NCBI GenBank assembly: GCA_902604855.1
Contig: CACLAF010000004.1
Span: 1-64,000 of the forward strand
From: an uncultured SAR86 cluster bacterium
Lineage (GTDB): Bacteria > Pseudomonadota > Gammaproteobacteria > Magnimaribacterales > Magnimaribacteraceae
DNA: 64,000 nucleotides
Direction: 5' to 3'
Shown here piece after piece: positions 4,057 to 61,449 of this stretch (its first letter is position 1; every line of letters begins with the position of its first letter). A model generated the notes under the pieces. It was not told where the DNA came from. It searched no databases and saw only the letters and a program-made list of their open reading frames with translations. The position numbers and the translations under genes were made by a program.

Positions 4057-4854
4057 TCATCCATGTTTTTTTATTAAGTTTATTGCCCATTTCTTAACAT
4101 TCGGGTTTTTTTCAATATCCAGAATGAATTCTTGTCCAAATCCTCTATAAAAAACAGTAGATTTTTTCTCATTCTCCCACTTCATTCTATTTAAAAAAAG
4201 ATCTTTTGAATCTTGAAAGTATTTGGAGGGCAGCTTCCATCTCGATCTGGTTTTATTTTTTTCAGTAAAAATTAAATCATCATGAGTAAACTTAAATAAA
4301 CCATGGCCTCGATCAAAAATTTTTCTTTTGTTAAGTTCTAATTTTTTCTTAGCTATGTAAATTGTGTTGTTAGAAAATTTCGAGGTATCTCCATATCCAT
4401 GGGGGTGTTGAATATTATTCTCAAAAAGATAACTTTTAATTTCTTTTGATCCCTCAATTATTTTCTCTATTTGCAGCCAACCAAATAAATGATGCAAATC
4501 TCTGCCATTTACTGAAAAGTTTTTAAACCATCCAAAAAATAAAAACAAATCTCCAGGACCTACATTATTATTCTTTAATTCAGTCTGAGATGCACTTGCT
4601 TGTCCAAAAATGCCAATTTTTTCGTTTAGCAATGGATCATTATGGCAATAATCCGTATCTCTAACCTTAGCTGAAACTTCTTTCAATAATTTAGAACCTG
4701 AAATGCCATTAAAATCTAGGTCTTTGTATTTTTTTGGTGAAGGATGATTTTGAGGGATAGGTATAGAAAAAAGACTTCCGTCATTGAATATAGGTGAAGC
4801 ACTACCACCCGCCCTTGAGTCAAAGCCCTTTCTACTTAATATTAATCTTTTCAA
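4057..4854 (-). CDS. Nmad3-family protein (nucleotide modification associated domain 3)
   Basis: A 265-residue protein whose start (ILSRKGFDSRAGGSASPI), the PIP motif near 32-35, GPGDLFLFFGWF near 99-110, HLFGWLQI near 122-129 and the GHGLFKFT segment match what I recall of the Nmad3 family. That family was predicted computationally to act in modified-nucleotide or nucleic-acid modification systems, and no biochemical activity is known to me. No methyltransferase, helicase or restriction partner lies beside it, so it appears stand-alone. Family assignment is from memory of the conserved blocks; function is open. Confidence 0.7.
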   Translation of the reverse strand: MKRLILSRKGFDSRAGGSASPIFNDGSLFSIPIPQNHPSPKKYKDLDFNGISGSKLLKEVSAKVRDTDYCHNDPLLNEKIGIFGQASASQTELKNNNVGPGDLFLFFGWFKNFSVNGRDLHHLFGWLQIEKIIEGSKEIKSYLFENNIQHPHGYGDTSKFSNNTIYIAKKKLELNKRKIFDRGHGLFKFTHDDLIFTEKNKTRSRWKLPSKYFQDSKDLFLNRMKWENEKKSTVFYRGFGQEFILDIEKNPNVKKWAINLIKKHG

Positions 4855-5740: not shown

Positions 5741-8700
5741 TTAAATACTCAACATTAGCTCAAGAAAACAAATTTCTGATGACGAGAGATCATTGCTAGA
5801 AATACTTGAGTAGTCAGAAAAATAGCTAGATCTACCTTGCCATCTGCAACCAAGATTAGTGGTCATATCGGTAGAAATTTCAAGTATTAATCCTAAGTCA
5901 ACTTCCCAATTATGAGTTTTCACTCCATCATCCAATAGCAATACGTAATTTATATTAGGCCCTTCTACGTTGTAATACATATTCTGGCTAGAAGTTTCCG
6001 AGTAATCTAGGCCATATTCTAAGGTTAGATATGGCATTGCATTATATTTTGATCCTACAAAAAGATAGCTGATATCAGTTCCAATTGAAGCCTTAACATT
6101 GGATAGTGTTAGTTCATCGAAAGTTAATGCTGCTTCACCGCCTAATTCACTAAATTTATCAAACTCAGTATATGAAGCATCAAGTCTAAGATAAGGAGAA
6201 ATTTGCCAGTTGCTTGACTCACTACTGAATGAACGGATGAAAGCAAGAGATCCAAATATCTGATCAGCCTCTCGTTGCCCTATTAAAAGTTCTTCACCAT
6301 CCAGTCGATCTGAGTCAAATTCTAATCTACTAATCCCTAAAATAAATTGTAATGCTTTATTTCTATCATCGAATTTTCCATATGTTGAAAAGCTATAGTT
6401 TCTAGACTCTACGTGAGAATCATTATTTCTATTTATTGGTTTAGCCTCTCCTAGACCAAAGGCAAAACCAAATAGATTTCCATCATTATTTAATCTATCA
6501 ATTCCTACATGGAAAGATCTTTCATCCAGAATTCTTGTACTGTTTTTGTTTTTACGAAGAGTAAATTCTCCAAATTCACCATCAATCCATACTGACCAAT
6601 CTCCAAGCAGTTCCCTGAGCTCGCCTTCAGCCGTTACTTTCACAGGATCTGACACCCAATCTTTGACGGTTGACTCAATTTGATCTAAATCTTGAGAACT
6701 CTCAGCTTCTTCTCGCTCATTATAAATGTTAGAAATTTGGATATCAGGATCAGTATCTGCGAGGCTTATATCCTGATTATAGTATTGAGGGTTTGTAACT
6801 AGTGAGTAGGAATGGTAAGAAGATTTTGAAATGATAGATGCTGATGATTTAGGATTATCAAATTCTGTTACACAGAAATAATTTTCATTAGGATCTGTCC
6901 ATACTTTCGGATCATCTGTGAGTGTGTGGGTGTAAACTAAATTCTTGCCTAATTGTGCATTTGAAGACTCTAAAAGACTCACAATAATTTTTTTATCCCC
7001 TGTGGTAAAACCAAATCTTTCTGGTGGAATACCATCGATGAAAATAATGGCAGATTTGAGCCCAGCCTCTATATTTAACATTCCTTCTCCAAATGAGAAG
7101 TTTTCTGTGCTTGATGAGCCAGTAATATTAAAATCAAGAACGACATCTTCGGGTGCAATTTTAGATAAATGCACTTTTATCTTCAAAGATGGATCGGTTT
7201 TGGGCCCACTAGAATTGATAGTACATAGCTCTAAGATTGGCAGTTCAACAAAATTATCATCGCGTTCATTAATGCTCATATTCTTAATTGAGTCGATAAC
7301 ATTATTGTTAAAATTAACTTTTAAACGATTCAAGCCTTGTTGTGCTGAAGTCTTCATCCTTTTAGAAATTACATTAACATTTTGATCAACCCAACGAGTT
7401 GCAATCTGTAACATAGCTTTCGCATTATCAATGACAGGCTGCTTTAAAGTAGGATCCGTCAATATGATGGGGGTTTTAAAATTGAACTCACTTTTATCAC
7501 TTATGCCTCTATATGAATTGCCTATAATGTCTATAAATACGGTGTTTTCAATTAATACGTAATATTCTGTTTCATACTCAAGATCCGTTGGTAAATTAAT
7601 TGTTATTGTCTCTGTCCCGCAACCTGCTACAGACTCATTTGGTAAACTGACAGCAAAAGAGGAAGAATTATCTTCTGATTCAATATTAATTGTGCCTGAT
7701 TCACAATTCACGATTTTGTTAAACGTCAAGACGATATCGCTATCCACTGGAACCCTGGTGCTATCATCTTTGGGGTCAGTTCCAATTAGGATTGGTCTTT
7801 TATCATCGTCATTTGCCAATATTGTGTGAGTATAAACATAGTCCTCTCCCAGAGTTGCATTGGTAGGATTAGACAAGGTCATGATAATCGTTTCGTCTTC
7901 CTCGGCCAGGTCGTCATCAATAATGGTAGGAATGGTTATGATGCCGGTATTTTCGCCAGCAACAATTATTAAAGTACCATTGTCTAAATTATAATCGACG
8001 CCTGATCCAGTTGCCGTTCCTGTTAATTCATAATCCACTGATATTTCCTTGCCAGAAACCATAGATAAGTCAACTGTAATGCTTATTGATGGGGAAGGCT
8101 CATCGCTTTCGGAGCTGTTAATATTAAAATCTATGTCAGGAAGACTATCATTATCATTAATGGTATAAGTATGGACATTATCAGCCCCTAAGGTTGCATT
8201 GCTTGGATTTGATAAAGTTACTATCACCGTCTCATTTTCTTCATCCAATAGATCATCGATAATATCTGTTATCGTAATAGTTCCAGTTGTTTCGCCAGCA
8301 CTTATCGTGAGCGTTCCATCAGCTAAGGTGTAATCTGTACCGGAGCCTGTAGCAGTCCCAGTAACCGCAAAGTCAAGTGTTACATTTTGAGTGGGCGCAA
8401 CAGATAAATCTAAAGTTAAGGCTGCAGAAGTTATAGATTCATCACCATTTGAAGTTGGAGCACTAAAGTTAATGATCGGAGTAGTGTCATTATCAATAAT
8501 TGTAAAAGTATGGGCATTATCATTACCCAGAGTTGCATTGACCGGATTAGACAAAGTAATAATTATTGTTTCATCAGGCTCATCAAATGGATCATCAACA
8601 ATACTCGCAATGGTAATCGTGCCGCTAGTTTCACCCGCATTAATAGTTAGTTTTCCAGCGCCAAGAGTGTAATCTTCTCCTGATCCAGTTGCAGTACCTG

Positions 8701-11700
8701 TTATTGCATAATCAACTGTCACATTTTGATTTGATACAGCAGATAAATCTACAGTTAGGCCTGCAGAAGAAACTGATTCAGCTCCGCTTGAGCTGGATGT
8801 ATTAAAGTCAATTTCGGGAGGATTGTCATTATCAGTAATAATGGCAGTATGGACAATATCACTCCCAAGGATCGCACCGGTTGGATTTGATAAAGTGATG
8901 ATTATTGTTTCATCAGCTTCATCTGCTTGATCATCTACAATCGATGGAATGACTATTGTTCCACTTGTTGCGCCCTCCTCAATGGTCACGCTGCCAGATG
9001 ATAATGAGTAGTCTGTGCCTGATCCAGCAGTGCCCCCGGTGACTCCATAATCAACCTGAATTGCTGTAGAAGCTGCAAAGAGAACACCAATAGCTATTGA
9101 TCTCGTAGTAACTGATTCCGAATCAGTGGAGGTCGAAGTAGAAAATGCTACTGTTGGTGTACCATCGTTATCACTTATGGTGTAAGTGTGTAAACTATCA
9201 TTTCCAAGAACAGCATTATTTGGATTAGATAAAGTAATGATTACTGTCTCATTAGCTTCGTCCAGATCATCATCAACAATTCCAGCTATTGTGATGGTTC
9301 CAGAAGTACCACCAGCACTTATAGTTAGGGTTCCGTTAGCAAGAGTATAGTCAGTGCCAGAACCTGTAGCCGTTCCTGTAACAACGTAATCCACAGTAAT
9401 GTTGCTACTTGAAGCTGCAGATAAATCAACAGTTAAAGCTACTGATGATATATCTTCAGCACCGTTTGAACTTGCAACATTAAAGTCGATTGTAGGCAAA
9501 CCATCGTCATCAGCAATGGTAAAAGTATAAACATCATCACTACCTAAAGTAGCATTACTAGGACTTGATAAAGTTATGATTACCGTTTCGTCTGGTTCAT
9601 CCGCAGAATCATCGACAATATTTGCAATCGTTATTGTGCCTGTTGTGGAACCTGCAGCAATACTTAAGGTTCCATTTATAAGCGTATAGTCTATTCCTGA
9701 TCCACTAGCTGTGCCTGTAACTGCGTAATCGACCGTTACGGTTTCGCTAGAAGGCCCAGATAAATCCACTGTAATAGCCTTAGAAGATATAGATTCAGCT
9801 CCACTTGAGCCGGTAGAATTGAAGTCAATGGTTGGAGTAGTGTCATTGTCAGTGATAGTGTAAGTATGAACTTTGTCAGCACCCAGAGTTGCATTACTTG
9901 GGTTTGATAGTGTCATAACAACAGTTTCATCAGCTTCGTCTATAGAGTCGTCAACTATGCTAGCAATTGTTATCGTGCCAGTTGAGGACCCAGCATTAAT
10001 TGTTAGAGTTCCACTCCCGAGAGTGTAATCAGTGCCTGTGCCTGTTGCAGTTCCAGTTAAAGCATAATTAACAGTGACGGCTTTTGCAGAAACTGCAGAT
10101 AAATCAACAGTAATGGCTTTGGAGGAAACTGACTCGGCTCCAGTTGAGCTTGAAGTATTAAAATCAACTACTGGAGCATCGTCATTATCAGCGATGGTAT
10201 AAGTATGAATAGTGTCATTGCCCAGAGTTGCGTTACTTGGGTTGGAAAGAGTCAGAACAACGGTCTCATTATCTTCATCTAAAGAATCATTAACAATACT
10301 TGCGATAGTAATTGTTCCACTTGTTATTCCTGAGTTGATGGTTAGGGTCCCATTCGCAAGTGTGTAATCGGTACCGGAGCCTGTCGCAGTTCCTGTCAAA
10401 GCATAATCAACTGTGACAGTTTGACTGGAAGCTGCAGATAAATCCACCGTAATAACTTTGGACGATACTGATTCAGCTCCACTTGAGCTTGTAGTATTGA
10501 AGTCTACAGCTGGTGCGTTATCGTTATCAGTAATGGTGTAAGTATGTACTTTATCACTGCCAAGGGTTGCATTACTGGGGCTCGACAAAGTAACGATAAC
10601 GGTCTCATTGGCTTCATCTAAAGAATCATCAATAATTCCTGCTATCGTAATTAAGCCTGTTGTTGATCCTGCGCTTATGGTGAGCGTTCCATTCGCAAGT
10701 GTGTAATCGGTACCTGATCCAGTCGCAGTTCCTGTAATTGCATAATCAACTGTTACGTTTTGACTTGACGCGGCGGATAAATCCACAGTTAAACCTGCCG
10801 AAGAAACCGATTCAGCTCCACTTGAGCTTGTAGTATTGAAGTCTACAGCTGGTGCGTTATCGTTATCAGTAATGGTGTACGTATAAACGCTATCACTGCC
10901 CAGCGTTGCATTGTTTGGGTTGGATAGGGTCAAAATGACTGTCTCATTAGCTTCATCAGCTGCATCATCAATAATGCTAGAGATAGTTATAGTCCCAGTT
11001 GATGCGCCCGCATTGATAGTTAAGGTGCCATTGGCTAAGGTGTAATCAGTGCCAGATCCAGTTGCAGTTCCAGTCACCGCATAATCAACTGTTACGTCTT
11101 GTGCTGAAACTGCTGATAAATCCACAGTAATGGCTTTTGAAGATACTGATTCCGCACCACTTGAACTGGTGGTATTAAAATCAACAGCTGGTGGATCATC
11201 ATTATCAGTAATGGTGTAAGTATGAGCGTCATCACTGCCCAAGGTTGCATTACTGGGGTTCGACAAGGTCACGATGACGGTTTCATTTGCTTCGTCTAAT
11301 GAGTCATTAACAATGCTACCGATTGTAATAGTCCCGCTTGTTTCACCGGCATTGATGGTTAGAGTTCCATTGGCTAAGGTGTAATCAGTGCCAGATCCAG
11401 TTGCAGTTCCTGTAAGAGCATAATCAACTGTTACGTTTTGTCCTGAGACTGCTGATAAATCTACAGTCAAGCCTGCTGAAGAAACTGACTCGGCATCACT
11501 TGAGCTTGTGGCATTGAAGTCAACTACTGGTGCATCATCATTATCATTAATTGTATATGTGTGAGCATCATCACTACCCAAGGTTGCATTACTGGGGTTC
11601 GATAACGTAACTATGACTGTCTCATTAGCCTCATCAATTGAGTCATCGATAATACTTGATATATTTATAGTCCCACTTGATGCGCCCGCATTGATAGTTA

Positions 11701-14700
11701 AGGTGCCATTAGCTAGCGTGTAATCAGTGCCTGATCCTGTTGCAGTTCCAGTCACCGCATAATCAACCGTTACGTCTTGTGCTGAAACTGCAGATAAATC
11801 TACAGTCAATGCTGTAGAAGAAACTGATTCCGCATCACTTGAGCTGGTGCCACTAAAATCAACCACTGGCGCGTTATCATTATCGGTGATGGTATAAGTA
11901 TGAACAAGAATGGTGCCTGGATCTGCGTTTGACGGATTAGATAATGTGATAATGACTGTTTCATTCACCTCATCCAAAGAGTCATCAACAATTCCAGCAA
12001 TAGTAATTGTCGTTGATGTTGAACCTGCCGCAATAGTTGCAGTACCATTAGCCAGGGTGTAATCAGTACCCGATCCAGTTGCAGTTCCAGTCACCGCATA
12101 ATTAACTGTCACATCTTCTGCCGAGGTTGACGTTATATTGACTGTGATGGATTTAGAAGATGATGATTCAGCTCCGCTTGAAGTAGCATCGGCAAAAGAT
12201 ATATCTCTGTCTCCTTCTGGCTCCTGAATTGTGAATGTATGGACATTATCACTACCTAAAGTTGCATTACTTGGACTTGATAAAGTAAGAATGACGGTTT
12301 CATTTGGATCAGTGACTCCATCGTTAACAATCCCAGCTATTGTGATAGTTCCTGTTGTTGATCCTGCACTTATGGTGAGTGTTCCATTAGCTAGCGTATA
12401 GTCTGTACCTGATCCAGTCGCAGTACCGGTAACTGCATAATTTACTGTCACATTTTGTCCTGAGACTGCTGATAGATCGACTGTGACAGCTTTGGTAGAT
12501 ACAGATTCTAACCCGCTAGAACTAGTCAATTCAAAATCAACTACTGGGGCGTTATCATTATCAGTAATGGTATAAGTATGTGCATCATCACTTCCTAGAG
12601 TTGCATTACTGGGGTTAGACAACGTAACGATGACTGTCTCGTTTGCTTCATCCAACGAATCATCAACAATGCTTCCAATGGTAATGATTCCGGAAGTTGC
12701 ACCAGCACTTATAGTGAGTGTTCCGTTGGCTAAAGTGTAATCTGTACCAGAGCCTGTTGCAGTTCCGGTAACTGCATAATCAACCGTTACGTTTTGACTC
12801 GATGCAGCCGATAAATCTACCGTGATGGGTTGTGAAGACACAGATTCAGCTTGATTCGAGCTAGTGGTATTAAAATCAACCACTGGGGCGCTGTCATTAT
12901 CGTTGATCGTATAAGTGTGAGCATCATTGCTTCCTAGAGTTGCATTGGTTGGGCTAGATAAAGTAACGATAACTGTCTCATTGGCTTCATCTAGAGTGTC
13001 GTTAACAATGCTAGCAATGGTGATGGCTCCAGATGAAGAGCCGGCGCTTATGGTGAGTGTTCCATTAGCTAGCGTGTAGTCTGTGCCTGATCCAGTCGCA
13101 GTACCGGTAACTGCATAATTAACAGTAACATTTTGACCAGACGCCGCAGATAAATCTAACGTGATGGCTTTGGCAGATACGGATTCCGCCCCATTTGAGC
13201 TGGTGGAATTGAATTGAACCACTGGCGCGTTATCATTATCAGTAATGGTGTAAGTGTGAGCATCATCACTTCCTAGAGTTGCATTGCTGGGGTTAGACAA
13301 CGTAACTATGACTGTCTCGTTTGCTTCATCTAGAGTGTCGTCTACAATGCTAGCAATGGTAATCGTGCCAGATGTCGACCCAGCAACTATAGTTAGCGTT
13401 CCATTGGCTAAAGTATAATCAGTACCAGATCCAGTTGCAGTTCCCGTAACAGCATAGTCAACCGTTACGTTTTGACTCGATGCAGCCGATAAATCTACAG
13501 TCAATGCTGCAGAAGATTCTGATTCAGCATCAGTTGAGCTGGTGGTATTAAAATCAACTACTGGGGCGTTATCATTATCAGTAATGGTATAAGTATGAGC
13601 ATCATCACTTCCTAGAGTTGCATTACTGGGACTTGATAGAGTAATGATTACTGTCTCATTGGGCTCATCTAAACCATCATCGACAATTCCTGCTATTGTA
13701 ATAGTCCCAGATGTTGCACCAGCACTTATAGTGAGTGTTCCGTTAGCAAGTGTGTAATCAGTGCCTGATCCTGTTGCAGTTCCTGTAACAGCATAATCTA
13801 CAGTCACATTTTGGGTTGATGACGCAGATAAATCTACCGTGATGGCCTGAGAAGATACTGATTCAGCATCACTTGAACTAGTAGTATTAAAATCAACTAC
13901 TGGCGCGTTATCATTATCAGTAATGGTGTAAGTGTGAACGCTATCACTACCCAAAGATGCATTACTGGGACTTGACAAGGTGACGACGACTGTCTCATTG
14001 GCTTCATCTAGGCTATCATCAACAATCCCCGCTATTGTAATAGTTCCAGAGGTTGCTCCCGCATTGATAGTTAAAGTGCCATTAGCTAAGGTATAGTCTG
14101 TACCGGAGCCTGTTGCGGTTCCTGTAACTGCATAGTCAACTGTTACATTTTGTGCAGAGGCTGCAGACAAATCTACCGTGATGGCCTGAGAAGATGCTGA
14201 TTCAGCTTGATTCGAGTTAGTGGTATTAAAATCAACTACTGGCGCGTTATCATTATCAGTAATGGTATAAGTATGAGCATTATTACTTCCTAAAGTTGCG
14301 TTGCTTGGGTTTGAAAGAGTAACAATTACAGTCTCATTAGCTTCATCGAGAGAGTCATCGACGATACTGCCAATGGTGATGGTACCAGATGTTGCACCAG
14401 CACTTATGGTTAGCGTTCCATTGGCTAGAGTGTAATCAGTGCCTGATCCAGTCGCAGTTCCTGTAACTGCATAGTCAACCGTTACGTTCTGTGTTGAAGC
14501 GAATGATAAGTCTACAGTTAAGACAGTAGAGGAAACAGATTCTGCTCCGTTGGAACTGGTGATATTAAAATCAACAGTTGGGTTCGCAGCTCTAGTTATA
14601 ACTCGAATATAGTCACCTGGCTTACCATTTTTCGAGCCAAATCTTAATGTTCTTTTGTCAGATCCAATTGATACCCAGTCACCAGACTGAGTTGAGCTTG

Positions 14701-15265
14701 TTGTGCTGCTACCATAATGAACATGATCTTCGGTCTGCCTTGCACTGAAACCACTATTACTTGAGGTTGGATAGGTTGCACTTAATTTATCTACATAATC
14801 GAAATCAACAGTCATTGAGGGGTCTGTCCAGTATCCTAATATTTCATAATCAAATACTATTTCACCAATCATTGAGGTTCGATCAGATTTATTGCTATGC
14901 TGGTCATTAATAAAAACTAGGTAAGAATTGGCAGGAGTATTCCCAAATACAATTGAAGTCGCACTTCCAGTAGGAACATAGCCAAGGCCACTAAAGTTAT
15001 AAGTATTGGTGCATATGGAGCTACTCTGGCCTTGCTGACAGATTGCTGTTCTTTCAGGAGTGATGATAAAGTCAAATCCCGAAGATGATCTTTGACCATC
15101 CATGCTTTGTTTTCGAGCCCTAAAATCTGTGGCGCTACTGTTGATTTCTACATAGGAATTAGTGCTTGCAATACCATCTGCATGGACTTGTATAGACAAC
15201 AATCCAACAAATAATAGAAATGCACCTTTGTAAAAGGATCTTGTTAAATTCACCCTTATTTTCAA
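5741..15265 (-). CDS. Giant Calx-beta repeat autotransporter (surface protein)
   Basis: About 3,174 residues from my preferred TTG start at 15265, which follows GGTGGGG by 5 bases and gives a classic signal peptide (KIRVNLTRSFYKG then a hydrophobic core ending VHA). The frame opens at an ATG at 15325, but that codon lies inside a palindrome without a Shine-Dalgarno sequence. After a unique N-terminal domain of about 200 residues come 20 tandem Calx-beta domains (113 residues each, ending DNDNAPVVDFN-like), an Ig-like SbsA/Big_5 domain (TDPKDDSTRVPVDSDIVLTFN), a diverged extra Calx-beta unit, and a C-terminal ~290-residue autotransporter beta-barrel (from about 6615 to 5741). Calx-beta units bind Ca2+ through Asp/Glu clusters such as DDSLDEANET. 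It is likely an adhesin or matrix protein displayed by type V secretion. The last residue is Ile rather than the usual aromatic residue. Confidence 0.88.
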   Translation of the reverse strand: MKIRVNLTRSFYKGAFLLFVGLLSIQVHADGIASTNSYVEINSSATDFRARKQSMDGQRSSSGFDFIITPERTAICQQGQSSSICTNTYNFSGLGYVPTGSATSIVFGNTPANSYLVFINDQHSNKSDRTSMIGEIVFDYEILGYWTDPSMTVDFDYVDKLSATYPTSSNSGFSARQTEDHVHYGSSTTSSTQSGDWVSIGSDKRTLRFGSKNGKPGDYIRVITRAANPTVDFNITSSNGAESVSSTVLTVDLSFASTQNVTVDYAVTGTATGSGTDYTLANGTLTISAGATSGTITIGSIVDDSLDEANETVIVTLSNPSNATLGSNNAHTYTITDNDNAPVVDFNTTNSNQAESASSQAITVDLSAASAQNVTVDYAVTGTATGSGTDYTLANGTLTINAGATSGTITIAGIVDDSLDEANETVVVTLSSPSNASLGSDSVHTYTITDNDNAPVVDFNTTSSSDAESVSSQAITVDLSASSTQNVTVDYAVTGTATGSGTDYTLANGTLTISAGATSGTITIAGIVDDGLDEPNETVIITLSSPSNATLGSDDAHTYTITDNDNAPVVDFNTTSSTDAESESSAALTVDLSAASSQNVTVDYAVTGTATGSGTDYTLANGTLTIVAGSTSGTITIASIVDDTLDEANETVIVTLSNPSNATLGSDDAHTYTITDNDNAPVVQFNSTSSNGAESVSAKAITLDLSAASGQNVTVNYAVTGTATGSGTDYTLANGTLTISAGSSSGAITIASIVNDTLDEANETVIVTLSSPTNATLGSNDAHTYTINDNDSAPVVDFNTTSSNQAESVSSQPITVDLSAASSQNVTVDYAVTGTATGSGTDYTLANGTLTISAGATSGIITIGSIVDDSLDEANETVIVTLSNPSNATLGSDDAHTYTITDNDNAPVVDFELTSSSGLESVSTKAVTVDLSAVSGQNVTVNYAVTGTATGSGTDYTLANGTLTISAGSTTGTITIAGIVNDGVTDPNETVILTLSSPSNATLGSDNVHTFTIQEPEGDRDISFADATSSGAESSSSKSITVNITSTSAEDVTVNYAVTGTATGSGTDYTLANGTATIAAGSTSTTITIAGIVDDSLDEVNETVIITLSNPSNADPGTILVHTYTITDNDNAPVVDFSGTSSSDAESVSSTALTVDLSAVSAQDVTVDYAVTGTATGSGTDYTLANGTLTINAGASSGTINISSIIDDSIDEANETVIVTLSNPSNATLGSDDAHTYTINDNDDAPVVDFNATSSSDAESVSSAGLTVDLSAVSGQNVTVDYALTGTATGSGTDYTLANGTLTINAGETSGTITIGSIVNDSLDEANETVIVTLSNPSNATLGSDDAHTYTITDNDDPPAVDFNTTSSSGAESVSSKAITVDLSAVSAQDVTVDYAVTGTATGSGTDYTLANGTLTINAGASTGTITISSIIDDAADEANETVILTLSNPNNATLGSDSVYTYTITDNDNAPAVDFNTTSSSGAESVSSAGLTVDLSAASSQNVTVDYAITGTATGSGTDYTLANGTLTISAGSTTGLITIAGIIDDSLDEANETVIVTLSSPSNATLGSDKVHTYTITDNDNAPAVDFNTTSSSGAESVSSKVITVDLSAASSQTVTVDYALTGTATGSGTDYTLANGTLTINSGITSGTITIASIVNDSLDEDNETVVLTLSNPSNATLGNDTIHTYTIADNDDAPVVDFNTSSSTGAESVSSKAITVDLSAVSAKAVTVNYALTGTATGTGTDYTLGSGTLTINAGSSTGTITIASIVDDSIDEADETVVMTLSNPSNATLGADKVHTYTITDNDTTPTIDFNSTGSSGAESISSKAITVDLSGPSSETVTVDYAVTGTASGSGIDYTLINGTLSIAAGSTTGTITIANIVDDSADEPDETVIITLSSPSNATLGSDDVYTFTIADDDGLPTIDFNVASSNGAEDISSVALTVDLSAASSSNITVDYVVTGTATGSGTDYTLANGTLTISAGGTSGTITIAGIVDDDLDEANETVIITLSNPNNAVLGNDSLHTYTISDNDGTPTVAFSTSTSTDSESVTTRSIAIGVLFAASTAIQVDYGVTGGTAGSGTDYSLSSGSVTIEEGATSGTIVIPSIVDDQADEADETIIITLSNPTGAILGSDIVHTAIITDNDNPPEIDFNTSSSSGAESVSSAGLTVDLSAVSNQNVTVDYAITGTATGSGEDYTLGAGKLTINAGETSGTITIASIVDDPFDEPDETIIITLSNPVNATLGNDNAHTFTIIDNDTTPIINFSAPTSNGDESITSAALTLDLSVAPTQNVTLDFAVTGTATGSGTDYTLADGTLTISAGETTGTITITDIIDDLLDEENETVIVTLSNPSNATLGADNVHTYTINDNDSLPDIDFNINSSESDEPSPSISITVDLSMVSGKEISVDYELTGTATGSGVDYNLDNGTLIIVAGENTGIITIPTIIDDDLAEEDETIIMTLSNPTNATLGEDYVYTHTILANDDDKRPILIGTDPKDDSTRVPVDSDIVLTFNKIVNCESGTINIESEDNSSSFAVSLPNESVAGCGTETITINLPTDLEYETEYYVLIENTVFIDIIGNSYRGISDKSEFNFKTPIILTDPTLKQPVIDNAKAMLQIATRWVDQNVNVISKRMKTSAQQGLNRLKVNFNNNVIDSIKNMSINERDDNFVELPILELCTINSSGPKTDPSLKIKVHLSKIAPEDVVLDFNITGSSSTENFSFGEGMLNIEAGLKSAIIFIDGIPPERFGFTTGDKKIIVSLLESSNAQLGKNLVYTHTLTDDPKVWTDPNENYFCVTEFDNPKSSASIISKSSYHSYSLVTNPQYYNQDISLADTDPDIQISNIYNEREEAESSQDLDQIESTVKDWVSDPVKVTAEGELRELLGDWSVWIDGEFGEFTLRKNKNSTRILDERSFHVGIDRLNNDGNLFGFAFGLGEAKPINRNNDSHVESRNYSFSTYGKFDDRNKALQFILGISRLEFDSDRLDGEELLIGQREADQIFGSLAFIRSFSSESSNWQISPYLRLDASYTEFDKFSELGGEAALTFDELTLSNVKASIGTDISYLFVGSKYNAMPYLTLEYGLDYSETSSQNMYYNVEGPNINYVLLLDDGVKTHNWEVDLGLILEISTDMTTNLGCRWQGRSSYFSDYSSISSNDLSSSEICFLELMLSI
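7810..14590 (-). repeat. 20 tandem ~339-bp Calx-beta coding repeats
   Basis: Twenty in-frame units of about 339 bases (113 codons) run from the NPTVDFN unit near 14590 to the PDIDFN unit ending near 7810. The middle units are nearly identical in protein and very similar in DNA, with blocks such as AVTGTATGSGTDYTLANGTL repeated. Units 8 (RDISFADATSSG) and 17-20 are more diverged. Homogeneous centre and diverged ends are what unequal crossing-over or gene conversion produces. Copy number may vary between strains and may be miscounted in short-read assemblies. Confidence 0.9.
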
Positions 15266-15303
15266 AACAACCCCACCAAAAAAAATTCCGGCCTGAATTC
15301 TAT

Positions 15304-15332
15304 ATAAATAATGACAAATTATCATTATTTAT
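15304..15332. promoter_or_regulatory. Perfect 11-bp inverted repeat, probable operator of the giant autotransporter gene
   Basis: Arms ATAAATAATGA (15304-15314) and TCATTATTTAT (15322-15332) are exact reverse complements around a 7-base spacer. The element is 39 bases upstream of the preferred TTG start and covers the frame's upstream ATG. The inner part resembles a Fur-type box (repeated AATGAT/ATCATT elements), so iron or zinc control is possible. It lacks a GC stem and a T-run, so it is a poor terminator candidate. Confidence 0.5.
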
Positions 15333-21733: not shown

Positions 21734-23278
21734 TTACCAGGTTTGAGTCTCCATAAACTTATCTAGAGCTTCTTTAAAGGCACTTTGGATGTCATCACCG
21801 TACTCTCCTGTCTCGGACACTTTGTCCATAAGCTCTTTATGTTCAGAGTTCATATACGCCAGTAAACTTTTTTCAAAGTCTCTAATTTTTTCAACTTCTA
21901 CCTTCCTAAGGTAGCCTTCATTTGCCGTGAATAGCATCAATCCCATTTCGGCTACAGACATAGGTGAAAATTGATCTTGTTTTGTGAGTTCTGTGACCCT
22001 AACTCCGTGCTCAAGCTGCTCTTTGGAAGCCTCGTCTAGATCTGAGGCAAACTGAGCAAACGCTTCTAACTCTCTGTACTGAGCTAGGGCAGTTTTAATA
22101 CCGCCACCAAGTTTTTTAATGATGGGTACCTGAGCCGCACCGCCAACCCTAGAGACAGAAATACCTGGATCCATAGCTGGTTTCAATCCCGAACTAAACA
22201 AAGAAGACTCTAAGAAAATTTGACCATCAGTAATGGAAATTACGTTAGTTGGTACAAACGCGGATACGTCGCCGGCTTGTGTTTCAATTATTGGAAGAGC
22301 TGTCAAAGATCCTGTTTTACCTTTAACTTCACCGTTGGTATGTTTTTCTACATATTCTTCGTTTACTCGCGCTGCTCTTTCTAGAAGTCTTGAGTGTAAA
22401 TAGAAAACATCACCCGGATAAGCTTCCCTTCCTGGCGGTCTTCTAAGTAGTAATGACATTTGTCTATAAGCGACAGCTTGTTTAGACAGGTCATCATAAA
22501 TTATTAAGGCATCTTCACCTTTGTCTCTGAAATACTCACCCATAGAGCAAGCAGCAAAAGGTGCAATGTACTGCATAGGAGCTGGGTCTGCTGCACCGGC
22601 CACAACAACAATAGTGTTTTCCATTGCTCCATACTGCTCAAGCGTTCTGACCACTTGTGCAATTGAGGATTGTTTTTGGCCAATAGCTACATAGATACAT
22701 TTTACGCCAGTATCTTTTTGATTAATGATTGCGTCGATAGCAATTGCCGTCTTGCCAGTTTGTCTATCGCCAATAATCAACTCACGCTGACCTCTACCAA
22801 TGGGGACCATGCTATCAACAGCCTTTATTCCAAGCTGTACAGGCTGGTCAACTGATTTTCTAGAGATCACACCCGGAGCAACCTTTTCGACCGGGGCAGT
22901 GATATCAGTTTGGATTTCGCCCTTACCATCTATTGGTTCTCCTAAAGAATCTACAACCCTTCCCATAAGGGCCTCACCTACTGGTACCTCTAAAATTCTA
23001 CCGGTACATTTAGCTGATCCTCCCTCCGCAAGAAGCTTGTAGTCTCCCAAAATTACAGCGCCTACAGAATCAACTTCAAGGTTAAGGGCCATACCCATAA
23101 CTCCGTGCTCAAATTCGATAAGCTCTCCGTTCATAACTTCACCTAAGCCATGTATTCTTGCAATACCGTCGGCCAAGAAAACGATTGTGCCTTCATTGCT
23201 CGGGGTGGAGGCAGTATCAAGTGCATCAATCTTCTGTTTGATAACCTGACTAATTTCTGATGGGTTTAATTCTTCCAT
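21734..23278 (-). CDS. atpA: ATP synthase alpha subunit
   Basis: A 514-residue F1 alpha subunit with the non-catalytic nucleotide site. The Walker A loop GDRQTGKT is at residues 170-177, and the [11 protein letters not shown] block typical of alpha subunits is present. The N-terminal region opens [17 protein letters not shown], which contacts the delta subunit. Length and gene order are standard. Confidence 0.99.
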
Positions 23279-59184: not shown

Positions 59185-61449
59185 ATGAAAGTTTCCTTTT
59201 ATATGCTCATGGCGATGAGCTTAATAGTAACGCAAATAAATGCTGATGAACCGACACCTCTTGATACAGAAAAAGTAGACGAAGTTGTAGTTACTTCTTC
59301 AATTCTTAATACAAGTAGGATATTAAATCCTCTATATGTTATCGATGGAGATGAAATAAAAGATGACGCAACTACCTCACTAGGTGAAGCAGTTGATAGT
59401 TACTTAGGTGTTTCAATTGCCGATTATGGTGCTGCAGTTGGTCAGCCAATCATCAGAGGTATGTCTGGACCTCGAGTGAAAATTCTAAAAAATGGAATGG
59501 TCAATAGAGATGTCTCAGGACTTGGTGTAGACCATTTAAATGATGTTGATTTACATGACATCGAACAAATTGAAATCATCAAAGGACCATCCTCTTTACT
59601 TTATGCCAATGGAACCATTGGTGGAATTATCAATGTTGTAAATAATACCATTGCTAGGGAGGATTTTGACGGTCAAGAAGTTAATGCAGGATTGGAAACT
59701 CAATCCGCAAATGATGGTGATATTCAAGAGTTCAATTATAAAAATCTCTTAGGCGGATGGCTTAATTTTAGTCTGGGCTATAAAAACACCGAATTAGGCA
59801 ATTTTGATATACCTGATGGAGCTGTAGTTCACGAAGAAGAAGATCATGGCGATGATGATCACGATGAACATGAAGAAGAAGCTCTTTCTTATGTTGAAAA
59901 CTCTGATTTTGCTTCTGAAGCAAAGCAATTCGGTGTTTCGAGAACAGGAGAATGGGGATATTTCGGAATGAGTTATGAAAATTTAGAGAGCTTATATGGA
60001 ATACCTTTTCACGGAGACGAGCACGGAGACGAGCACGGAGACGAGCACGGAGATGATGATCATGATGACGAGCACGGAGACGATGATCACGATGACGATG
60101 AGCACGGAGATGAGCATGAGGGAGAGAGAATTTTCTCTACTACTGACCAAACGAGCTATAACTTAGCCGGCTTATACAATATTAACGGAGGCTTAATTAA
60201 TTCTATAAGCTATAACTGGAGAGACACAGAGTACTCTTTGACAGAAGCTCATGCAGAAGAAGAAGGTCATGATGATCATGAAGAAGAAGAGCATGAAGAA
60301 CATGCACCAACTGTCTTTACAAATGATGCAACCGAGTACGGCGCTATCTTTGATCTATCTTCAGACTCATTTACTCAAAAAGTAGCATTAAATTTTGTTG
60401 ATGAAGATTCCTCAATTGTTGGTGAAGAAGCTTTTATGAACCCTGCTAATAGTGAAGAGTTCACTATTGGTTATTTCGTCAGTACAGACTTTGACCTATT
60501 TTATCTTGATGCAGGCTTTAGACTTGATCAAATAGAGAGGACTGGAAGTGTCACTGATGAAGATCATGGAGACATCGACTACTATAAGGTAGATGATGAC
60601 ACTAATAGTTTCGCTCTTACTCTCGGCAGAGATATAAATGACAGTCTGGATATAAGCGTAGGTTTTGCTAGTGTTGAAAGATTGCCTTCAGTAATTGAGC
60701 TTTTCATGAATGGTCCACATATGGCAACTGGAAGACTTGAGACTGGTAATCCAAACCTTCAAAGCGAAACTTCGGATAATTTTGATATAACATTAAACTT
60801 TGATAATGGTAATTTTTACGCATCAGCAAGTTACTACATAAATGACGTAGATAATTACATAACACTGCAAGACGAGCTCGATGATCATGACGAACACGGA
60901 GATGACGACCATGGCGATGATGATCACGATGATCATGGCGATGATGATCACGGAGATGATCATGATGATCATGCAGCACATGCTAATTTGATTCACGCTA
61001 ATTACATTCAAGAAGACGCAGAATTCAAAGGTTATGAATTTGAGATCGGAACAACTGTGAGCTTAGGATCCGGTGATTTAACATTCTCTTTTGGAAGAGA
61101 TGATGTCACTGCAGAATTTTCTGATGGACATAATGTACCTAGAATAAATCCCGCAAGAAATATCTATTCTTTGACTTATGTTGAAAACGATTGGGTTTTC
61201 AAAATGAGCTTGAAAGATGTTGATGAGCAAGACGAAATAGGTGAGGGAGAGACTGTTACTGAATCCTATCAATTGCTAAATGCTAGATTAACAAAAACCT
61301 ATGATTTACCTGGTTCAGCTGAATTAAAAGTTTCTATCTTTGGTAGCAATTTGCAGGATGAAGTTGCAAGAAATCATTCATCATTTGTTAAGAATGAAGT
61401 GCCTCTAGCTGGAAGAAATTATGGTGCTAAATTTAACTACAAGTTTTAG
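59185..61449 (+). CDS. TonB-dependent receptor with His/Asp-rich loops (ZnuD-like, probable zinc uptake)
   Basis: A 754-residue outer-membrane receptor: signal peptide (MKVSFYMLMAMSLIVTQINA), a TonB-box-like DEVVVT at 32-37, a plug domain (about 45-160, with QPIIRGMSGPRVKIL and GPSSLLYANGTIGGIINVV), then a beta-barrel ending YGAKFNYKF. Four His/Asp/Glu-rich loops lie near 59827-59880, 60010-60123, 60246-60303 and 60879-60978, two of them built of DEHG/DDDH repeats. Such loops are known in ZnuD zinc receptors; substrate assignment is inference from that. A Shine-Dalgarno AGGAG precedes the ATG. Confidence 0.85.
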   Translation: MKVSFYMLMAMSLIVTQINADEPTPLDTEKVDEVVVTSSILNTSRILNPLYVIDGDEIKDDATTSLGEAVDSYLGVSIADYGAAVGQPIIRGMSGPRVKILKNGMVNRDVSGLGVDHLNDVDLHDIEQIEIIKGPSSLLYANGTIGGIINVVNNTIAREDFDGQEVNAGLETQSANDGDIQEFNYKNLLGGWLNFSLGYKNTELGNFDIPDGAVVHEEEDHGDDDHDEHEEEALSYVENSDFASEAKQFGVSRTGEWGYFGMSYENLESLYGIPFHGDEHGDEHGDEHGDDDHDDEHGDDDHDDDEHGDEHEGERIFSTTDQTSYNLAGLYNINGGLINSISYNWRDTEYSLTEAHAEEEGHDDHEEEEHEEHAPTVFTNDATEYGAIFDLSSDSFTQKVALNFVDEDSSIVGEEAFMNPANSEEFTIGYFVSTDFDLFYLDAGFRLDQIERTGSVTDEDHGDIDYYKVDDDTNSFALTLGRDINDSLDISVGFASVERLPSVIELFMNGPHMATGRLETGNPNLQSETSDNFDITLNFDNGNFYASASYYINDVDNYITLQDELDDHDEHGDDDHGDDDHDDHGDDDHGDDHDDHAAHANLIHANYIQEDAEFKGYEFEIGTTVSLGSGDLTFSFGRDDVTAEFSDGHNVPRINPARNIYSLTYVENDWVFKMSLKDVDEQDEIGEGETVTESYQLLNARLTKTYDLPGSAELKVSIFGSNLQDEVARNHSSFVKNEVPLAGRNYGAKFNYKF
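60010..60123 (+). repeat. 12-bp tandem repeats encoding a His/Asp/Glu loop
   Basis: Three perfect copies of CACGGAGACGAG (60010-60045) followed by diverged copies, encoding HGDE/DDDH units in an extracellular loop of the TonB receptor. Copy-number change would alter loop length without breaking frame. Confidence 0.85.
60879..60978 (+). repeat. Second His/Asp repeat tract in the TonB receptor
   Basis: Imperfect 12- to 15-base units of GATGATCATGACG/GATGATCACGG type encode a DDHDEHGDDDHGDDDHDDH stretch. It marks another metal-binding loop. Confidence 0.75.

Follow-up and report, generated by a model that had tools for sequence, protein, structure and literature searches.

Fibrillar adhesins share an anatomy in which a conserved far end is carried on a repetitive Ca2+-type stalk and held by an outer-membrane anchor, and gaps in the annotation of their N-terminal parts have been described (PMC9210967). 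A variable number of stalk units is the plan of the periscope proteins, among them SasG, Rib, Sgo_0707 and CdrA, in which high DNA identity between repeats drives rapid changes of length between strains (PMC8201768). Tandem Calx-beta domains with predicted interdomain Ca2+ have been described in BapP, a surface protein of the marine gammaproteobacterium Pseudoalteromonas tunicata that combines 7 Calx-beta-matching repeats and further BIg_9 repeats with a beta-propeller at the N terminus and may be secreted by a type I system (PMC12153261). Long surface stalks of Ca2+-binding Ig-like or Calx-beta domains are also built by giant RTX/type I adhesins such as LapA and SiiE, and in type Va autotransporters such as EstA (3kvn) and Hap a signal peptide and an N-terminal passenger precede a C-terminal PF03797 barrel. 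The window that we analyzed comprises the first 64,000 nucleotides of a contig from an uncultured SAR86 bacterium (CACLAF010000004.1), and the feature of interest here is a giant gene that combines elements of these systems. SAR86 bacteria are considered to be streamlined, free-living plankton, and our literature search returned no paper that connects them to a protein of such a kind, whether autotransporter or Calx-beta.

Domain layout of the giant gene

The gene is an open frame on the minus strand, which also carries all the parts described below, and it runs without interruption for 3,194 aa from an ATG at 15325 (5741..15325). A TTG at 15265, 20 codons downstream of this ATG and preceded by GGTGGGG, is the likelier start because full-length homologues (beginning MKIRLDLF.. 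or MKVRQDLF..) align with it, giving a product of 3,174 aa. From the TTG, a probable Sec signal peptide is clear by eye (MKIRVNLTRSFYKGAFLLFVGLLSIQVHA / DG; 15179..15265) and is conserved in the copies at loci L040 and L045. It is followed by a 202-aa N-terminal domain, the tip (aa 50-251; 14573..15178), and by 20 tandem Calx-beta units, each exactly 113 aa long (aa 252-2511; 7793..14572), which extend from unit 1 (14234-14572) to unit 20 (7793-8131). The remainder contains a Big_5 Ig-like domain (7472..7807; Pfam E 6.5e-12), a degenerate 21st Calx-beta unit (aa 2703-2805; 6911..7219) and a C-terminal autotransporter barrel region (5744..6754; Pfam match 5855-6529); the sequence ..LELMWNF forms the C terminus of many orthologues in other families.

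The Pfam search matched Calx-beta (PF03160) in 20 stretches (E 2.7e-206) and Autotransporter (PF03797) at E 2.7e-24, with both the Big_5 and the PF03797 matches exceeding curated cut-offs, and it matched no RTX repeats in the giant protein. PF03797 was also matched in 15 of 15 aligned orthologous C termini, and the C terminus scores 31.3 bits against TIGR01414 (cut-off, 16). Matches to bPH_4 and DUF4929 were dropped, as their best stretches fall inside the Calx-beta repeats. A preliminary description of this DNA had proposed a giant Calx-beta autotransporter of about 3,170 residues with 20 units of 113 residues, followed by Big_5 and barrel domains; the single intact frame (3,174 to 3,194 aa) and the domain search bear out these dimensions and domains, and the orthologous C termini further support the architecture. 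AlphaFold was run on shallow alignments (15 and 3 sequences), from which the Calx-beta part was usable and the models of the tip (pLDDT below 50 over most of its length) and of the barrel (pLDDT 33) were too poor; the identity of the barrel rests on the profile matches.

The predicted structure of the Calx-beta part, a check that had been suggested for one unit, found NCX1 structures as its best Foldseek matches (E 5.9e-13; NCX CBD12 fold), and phmmer against NCX1 gave E 4.5e-10. Acidic residues E11, D46, D73, E77, E80, D106 and D108 are kept in 18 to 20 of the 20 units and align with acidic segments of NCX, where we take them to correspond to the calcium ligands. Such conservation of ligand-aligned acids in nearly all 20 units makes a Ca2+-stiffened stalk plausible, and the Ca2+ concentration of sea water is ∼10 mM.

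Between stalk and barrel lies sequence without repeats, which includes a helical segment and a linker of low conservation. This arrangement would be compatible with cleavage of the passenger and its release as a Ca2+-binding matrix or scaffold, a biofilm or aggregate glue rather than a cell-bound rod, and processing is common among type V passengers. Biofilm adhesins such as BapP, moreover, contain Calx-beta units (PMC12153261). We nevertheless find release improbable, given that Pfam detected no protease domain in the giant protein and that a planktonic cell would gain little from a released 300-kDa protein.

Divergence and turnover of the stalk units

Pairwise identity between units ranges from 42 to 91% for protein and from 52 to 85% for DNA, with the best pair at 91% and 85%, respectively, and a median dS of 1.55, many pairs being saturated beyond estimation. 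The central copies are therefore far from the near-identity first attributed to them, and the picture of a homogenized center with diverged ends does not hold either: mean protein identity is 86% inside the membrane-distal block of units 1 to 6 (12539..14572), the mutually most alike, 81% inside units 9 to 13 and 59% inside units 14 to 20 (7793..10165), with divergent units 7 and 8 in mid-array, such that only the membrane-proximal end is diverged. With silent sites near saturation, the likeness of the units is due mainly to protein selection and not to recent copying, and the array is old.

Recent homogenization is ruled out by the same near-saturated silent sites, and codon scrambling, in the sense of selection against DNA identity, is unsupported, since conserved residues use the same codon in 47% of cases, above and not below the 38% obtained after codon shuffling. 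Strong recent gene conversion in the window array was likewise rejected: the longest run of silent identity falls short of significance in register (P 0.26) and reaches borderline significance in a single shifted register (P 0.046), and only the mean clustering of silent identity along the units is raised (P 0.0045 or less). This pattern indicates weak, old exchange between units. A clear exchange tract, of 27 silent codons and 102 identical bp, is present between units 3 and 4 of the copy at L040 (genome G078).

Four copies of the gene are contiguous and carry 20 (window), 21 (G012), 19 (G036) and 12 (G078) units, so that length, which the preliminary description expected to vary from strain to strain, varies between relatives, here species-level genomes represented by one genome per species. 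The nearest full-length copy is that of G012 (locus L032), from the same genus, with neighboring genes 89 to 93% identical in DNA. Window units 7 to 20 pair one to one with its units 8 to 21, with units 14 to 20 averaging ∼96% DNA identity. Window units 1 to 6 stand against seven units and match units 1, 2 and 4 to 7 at 83 to 88% (∼86% overall) as a patchwork with pieces best matched elsewhere. Silent-codon identity to G012 rises along the array, from 0.62 in units 1 to 6 through 0.81 in units 7 to 13 to 0.90 in units 14 to 20 (Spearman rho 0.86, p 1e-6), while the tip is 99% and the C-terminal module 94.5% identical. Two landmarks of the array, the EPxGDR linker that follows unit 7 and unit 17 with its VTGGTAGSG sequence, can be recognized in copies belonging to another family. 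The low silent identity of the distal block beside a near-identical tip indicates that this block has its own history, which could reflect either units exchanging with one another or a different allele of the block having taken its place. Some exchange between units, as originally proposed, thus stands, but in an array that is old and with turnover mainly in the distal units, beside an almost frozen tip.

These comparisons also bear on whether the array is partly an artefact of assembly with a wrong unit number, which we consider highly improbable. The host genome is a 1.36-Mb draft in 24 contigs (83% complete), and contigs stop within the array in most relatives that carry the gene, both of which would suit an artefact. 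However, all 20 units are distinct and the longest exact repeat in the array is 71 bp, which together with the like architecture of the closed, one-contig genome G036 makes collapse or misassembly unlikely, and the colinearity of units 7 to 20 with the independent assembly of G012 indicates that the array is probably correct.

Distribution of the gene and the tip domain

The tip or the barrel was found in 19 of 203 SAR86 genomes (15 each), scattered over families, and the gene is accessory in SAR86. Between families the tip shares 66 to 92% and the C-terminal part 67 to 75% protein identity (dS ∼0.6 to 1.5), and the gene is 70 to 92% identical between families whose glmS is 51 to 54% identical. 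Measured against the window genome, this same 51 to 54% protein identity of GlmS in other families goes with a dS of 1.6 to 4, and their AtpA shows 70 to 77% with silent sites near or at saturation. By this comparison the gene is younger than the families and must have moved horizontally between them. Viral carriage was considered and rejected, as a scan with the tip picked up nothing beyond a short motif, shared by chance, in small proteins of phages and a scan with the C-terminal part gave nothing.

Several individual observations were made alongside this survey. The closed genome CP097973.1 holds a copy lacking tip and signal peptide (L039:6968-13072), and since its frame begins inside a Calx-beta unit the gene has probably decayed there. 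The SAR86 gene is also carried, at 84% identity, by a contig (L033; PAEG01000098.1) that is labelled Acidimicrobiaceae MED867 and is probably misbinned. AtpA of the window (21734-23278, minus strand) is 77% identical to that of the same-genus genome G018, yet GlmS is 92% identical, and one lineage may have had its atp region replaced.

The neighbors of the window gene are glmS, a gene for nucleotide-modification associated domain 3 (Nmad3; 4057-4854, minus strand) and small orphans, and no ABC, HlyD or TolC genes lie beside it. The gene is near glmS and the Nmad3 gene in family f1 and in some f3 genomes, and it is located elsewhere in G036 and G056. In three f3 genomes it directly abuts a gene resembling those for ceramidases (PF04734 at E 1e-4, under the cut-off; L040:13029-14543, L043:1739-3232 and L045:4787-6298), which is also close by at L042 and L048. 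This gene is present in 8 of the 19 carriers and 29 of the 184 non-carriers (Fisher p 0.01, without correction for kinship); with 8 of 19 carriers and absence from the window genome, an obligate partnership is ruled out.

Two other proteins of the host genome deserve mention. A second giant protein of 3,461 aa with RTX, Calx-beta and cadherin-like domains (L009:2362-18781; G000 contig C2) is accompanied by ABC transporter, HlyD-like and TolC-like genes and is a type I secreted adhesin, which places two giant surface proteins in one 1.36-Mb genome. At 59185-61449 (plus strand) the window encodes a TonB-receptor-like protein of 754 aa into which several His/Asp/Glu-rich stretches are inserted (HGDEHGDDDHDD); these are likely metal-binding loops and are the source of the tandem repeats near 60 kb.

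No relatives of the tip were found in Pfam, NCBIfam or PDB sequences, and in a sample of 369 gammaproteobacterial genomes its profile matched SAR86 genomes only, being absent from the 365 genomes outside SAR86. Between families f1 and f2 the tip is 89 to 92% identical and the C-terminal part 70 to 73% at about equal dS (0.67 to 1.1), and dN/dS is ∼0.07 in the tip versus 0.15 to 0.21 in the C-terminal barrel module, making the tip the most constrained part in this comparison; the contrast is weaker in f3, and G078 reverses it (tip 68%, C-terminal part 72%). On these grounds we take the tip to be a conserved orphan domain that had been overlooked in the preliminary description, as had the spread of the gene across SAR86 families and the contig breaks within the array of most relatives. 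Its constraint in f1 and f2 speaks against the filament being mainly a shield or spacer toward grazers, phages or neighbors, with the stalk coat mattering and the tip merely a cap, as a passive cap would not need constraint and, under phage or immune escape, an exposed tip would be expected to be the most variable part. A shield would fit the variable stalk length and the accessory status of the gene, and large marine Synechococcus proteins are discussed with respect to grazers (PMC9387257), but overall we regard it as unlikely.

A proposed contact fiber and its relation to known systems

We hypothesize that the protein is probably a type-V-anchored, "periscope"-like fibrillar adhesin that carries its conserved tip on a stalk of variable length; we infer surface display, Ca2+ rigidity, ligand binding and the relevance of length. 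The C-terminal barrel would insert into the outer membrane and the passenger would be exported, and in type V secretion the N-terminal domain ends up farthest from the cell. The 20 Calx-beta units, probably Ca2+-locked, would build a stiff stalk of ∼80 to 90 nm (our own estimate, assuming ∼4 to 4.5 nm per Ig-like unit) that holds the conserved tip away from the cell, where it could bind a ligand presented by a particle, cell or polymer. Unequal exchange between units would alter stalk length over evolutionary time, mainly in the membrane-distal block, with tip and anchor module staying fixed, and the accessory gene would be passed between SAR86 families. Against this reading count the absence of any match of the tip to an adhesive family, the low pLDDT of the tip and barrel models, repeats too dissimilar in DNA for the rapid length change of periscope proteins, and the weaker or reversed tip contrast in f3 and G078. 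The persistence of a gene occupying ∼0.7% of the genome as an accessory element, and its transfer between families, suggest that some specific physical contact, be it with a particle, an alga or another cell, repays the cost. More tentatively, the tip might found a new adhesive family, limited to SAR86 in the searched genomes, that rides on a Ca2+ stalk of exchangeable length and is passed between families as a mobile contact organ, which would give streamlined plankton, supposed to be free-living, a single shared and specific attachment target. As a short, expressible domain, the tip offers a target for ligand screening.

The proposed fiber resembles LapA and SiiE in its long stalk but differs from them in having neither RTX repeats nor adjacent type I secretion genes; the second giant protein of this genome, at L009, is of that RTX/type I kind. 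With type Va autotransporters it shares the probable signal peptide, N-terminal passenger and C-terminal PF03797 barrel, although its passenger is a Calx-beta array where theirs is an esterase or a beta-helix (typical, not obligatory), and in sequence it is only marginally related to EstA (E 0.054). BapP, too, belongs to a marine gammaproteobacterium and builds a surface protein from Calx-beta units in tandem; the SAR86 protein, in comparison, has 20 such units, an orphan tip and the autotransporter barrel.

The likeness to periscope proteins extends to the tandem-domain stalk, the distal N-terminal domain, the predicted surface anchor and a unit number that varies between relatives (here 12, 19, 20 and 21). 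We do not file the SAR86 protein as a standard periscope protein because the repeats, tested for high DNA identity, share only 52 to 85%, and their near-saturated silent sites indicate slow recombination. Length variation, which in periscope proteins is usually linked to high repeat identity, is thus uncoupled from it in this stalk, which has a type V barrel for its anchor and whose variation is seen between species-level genomes.
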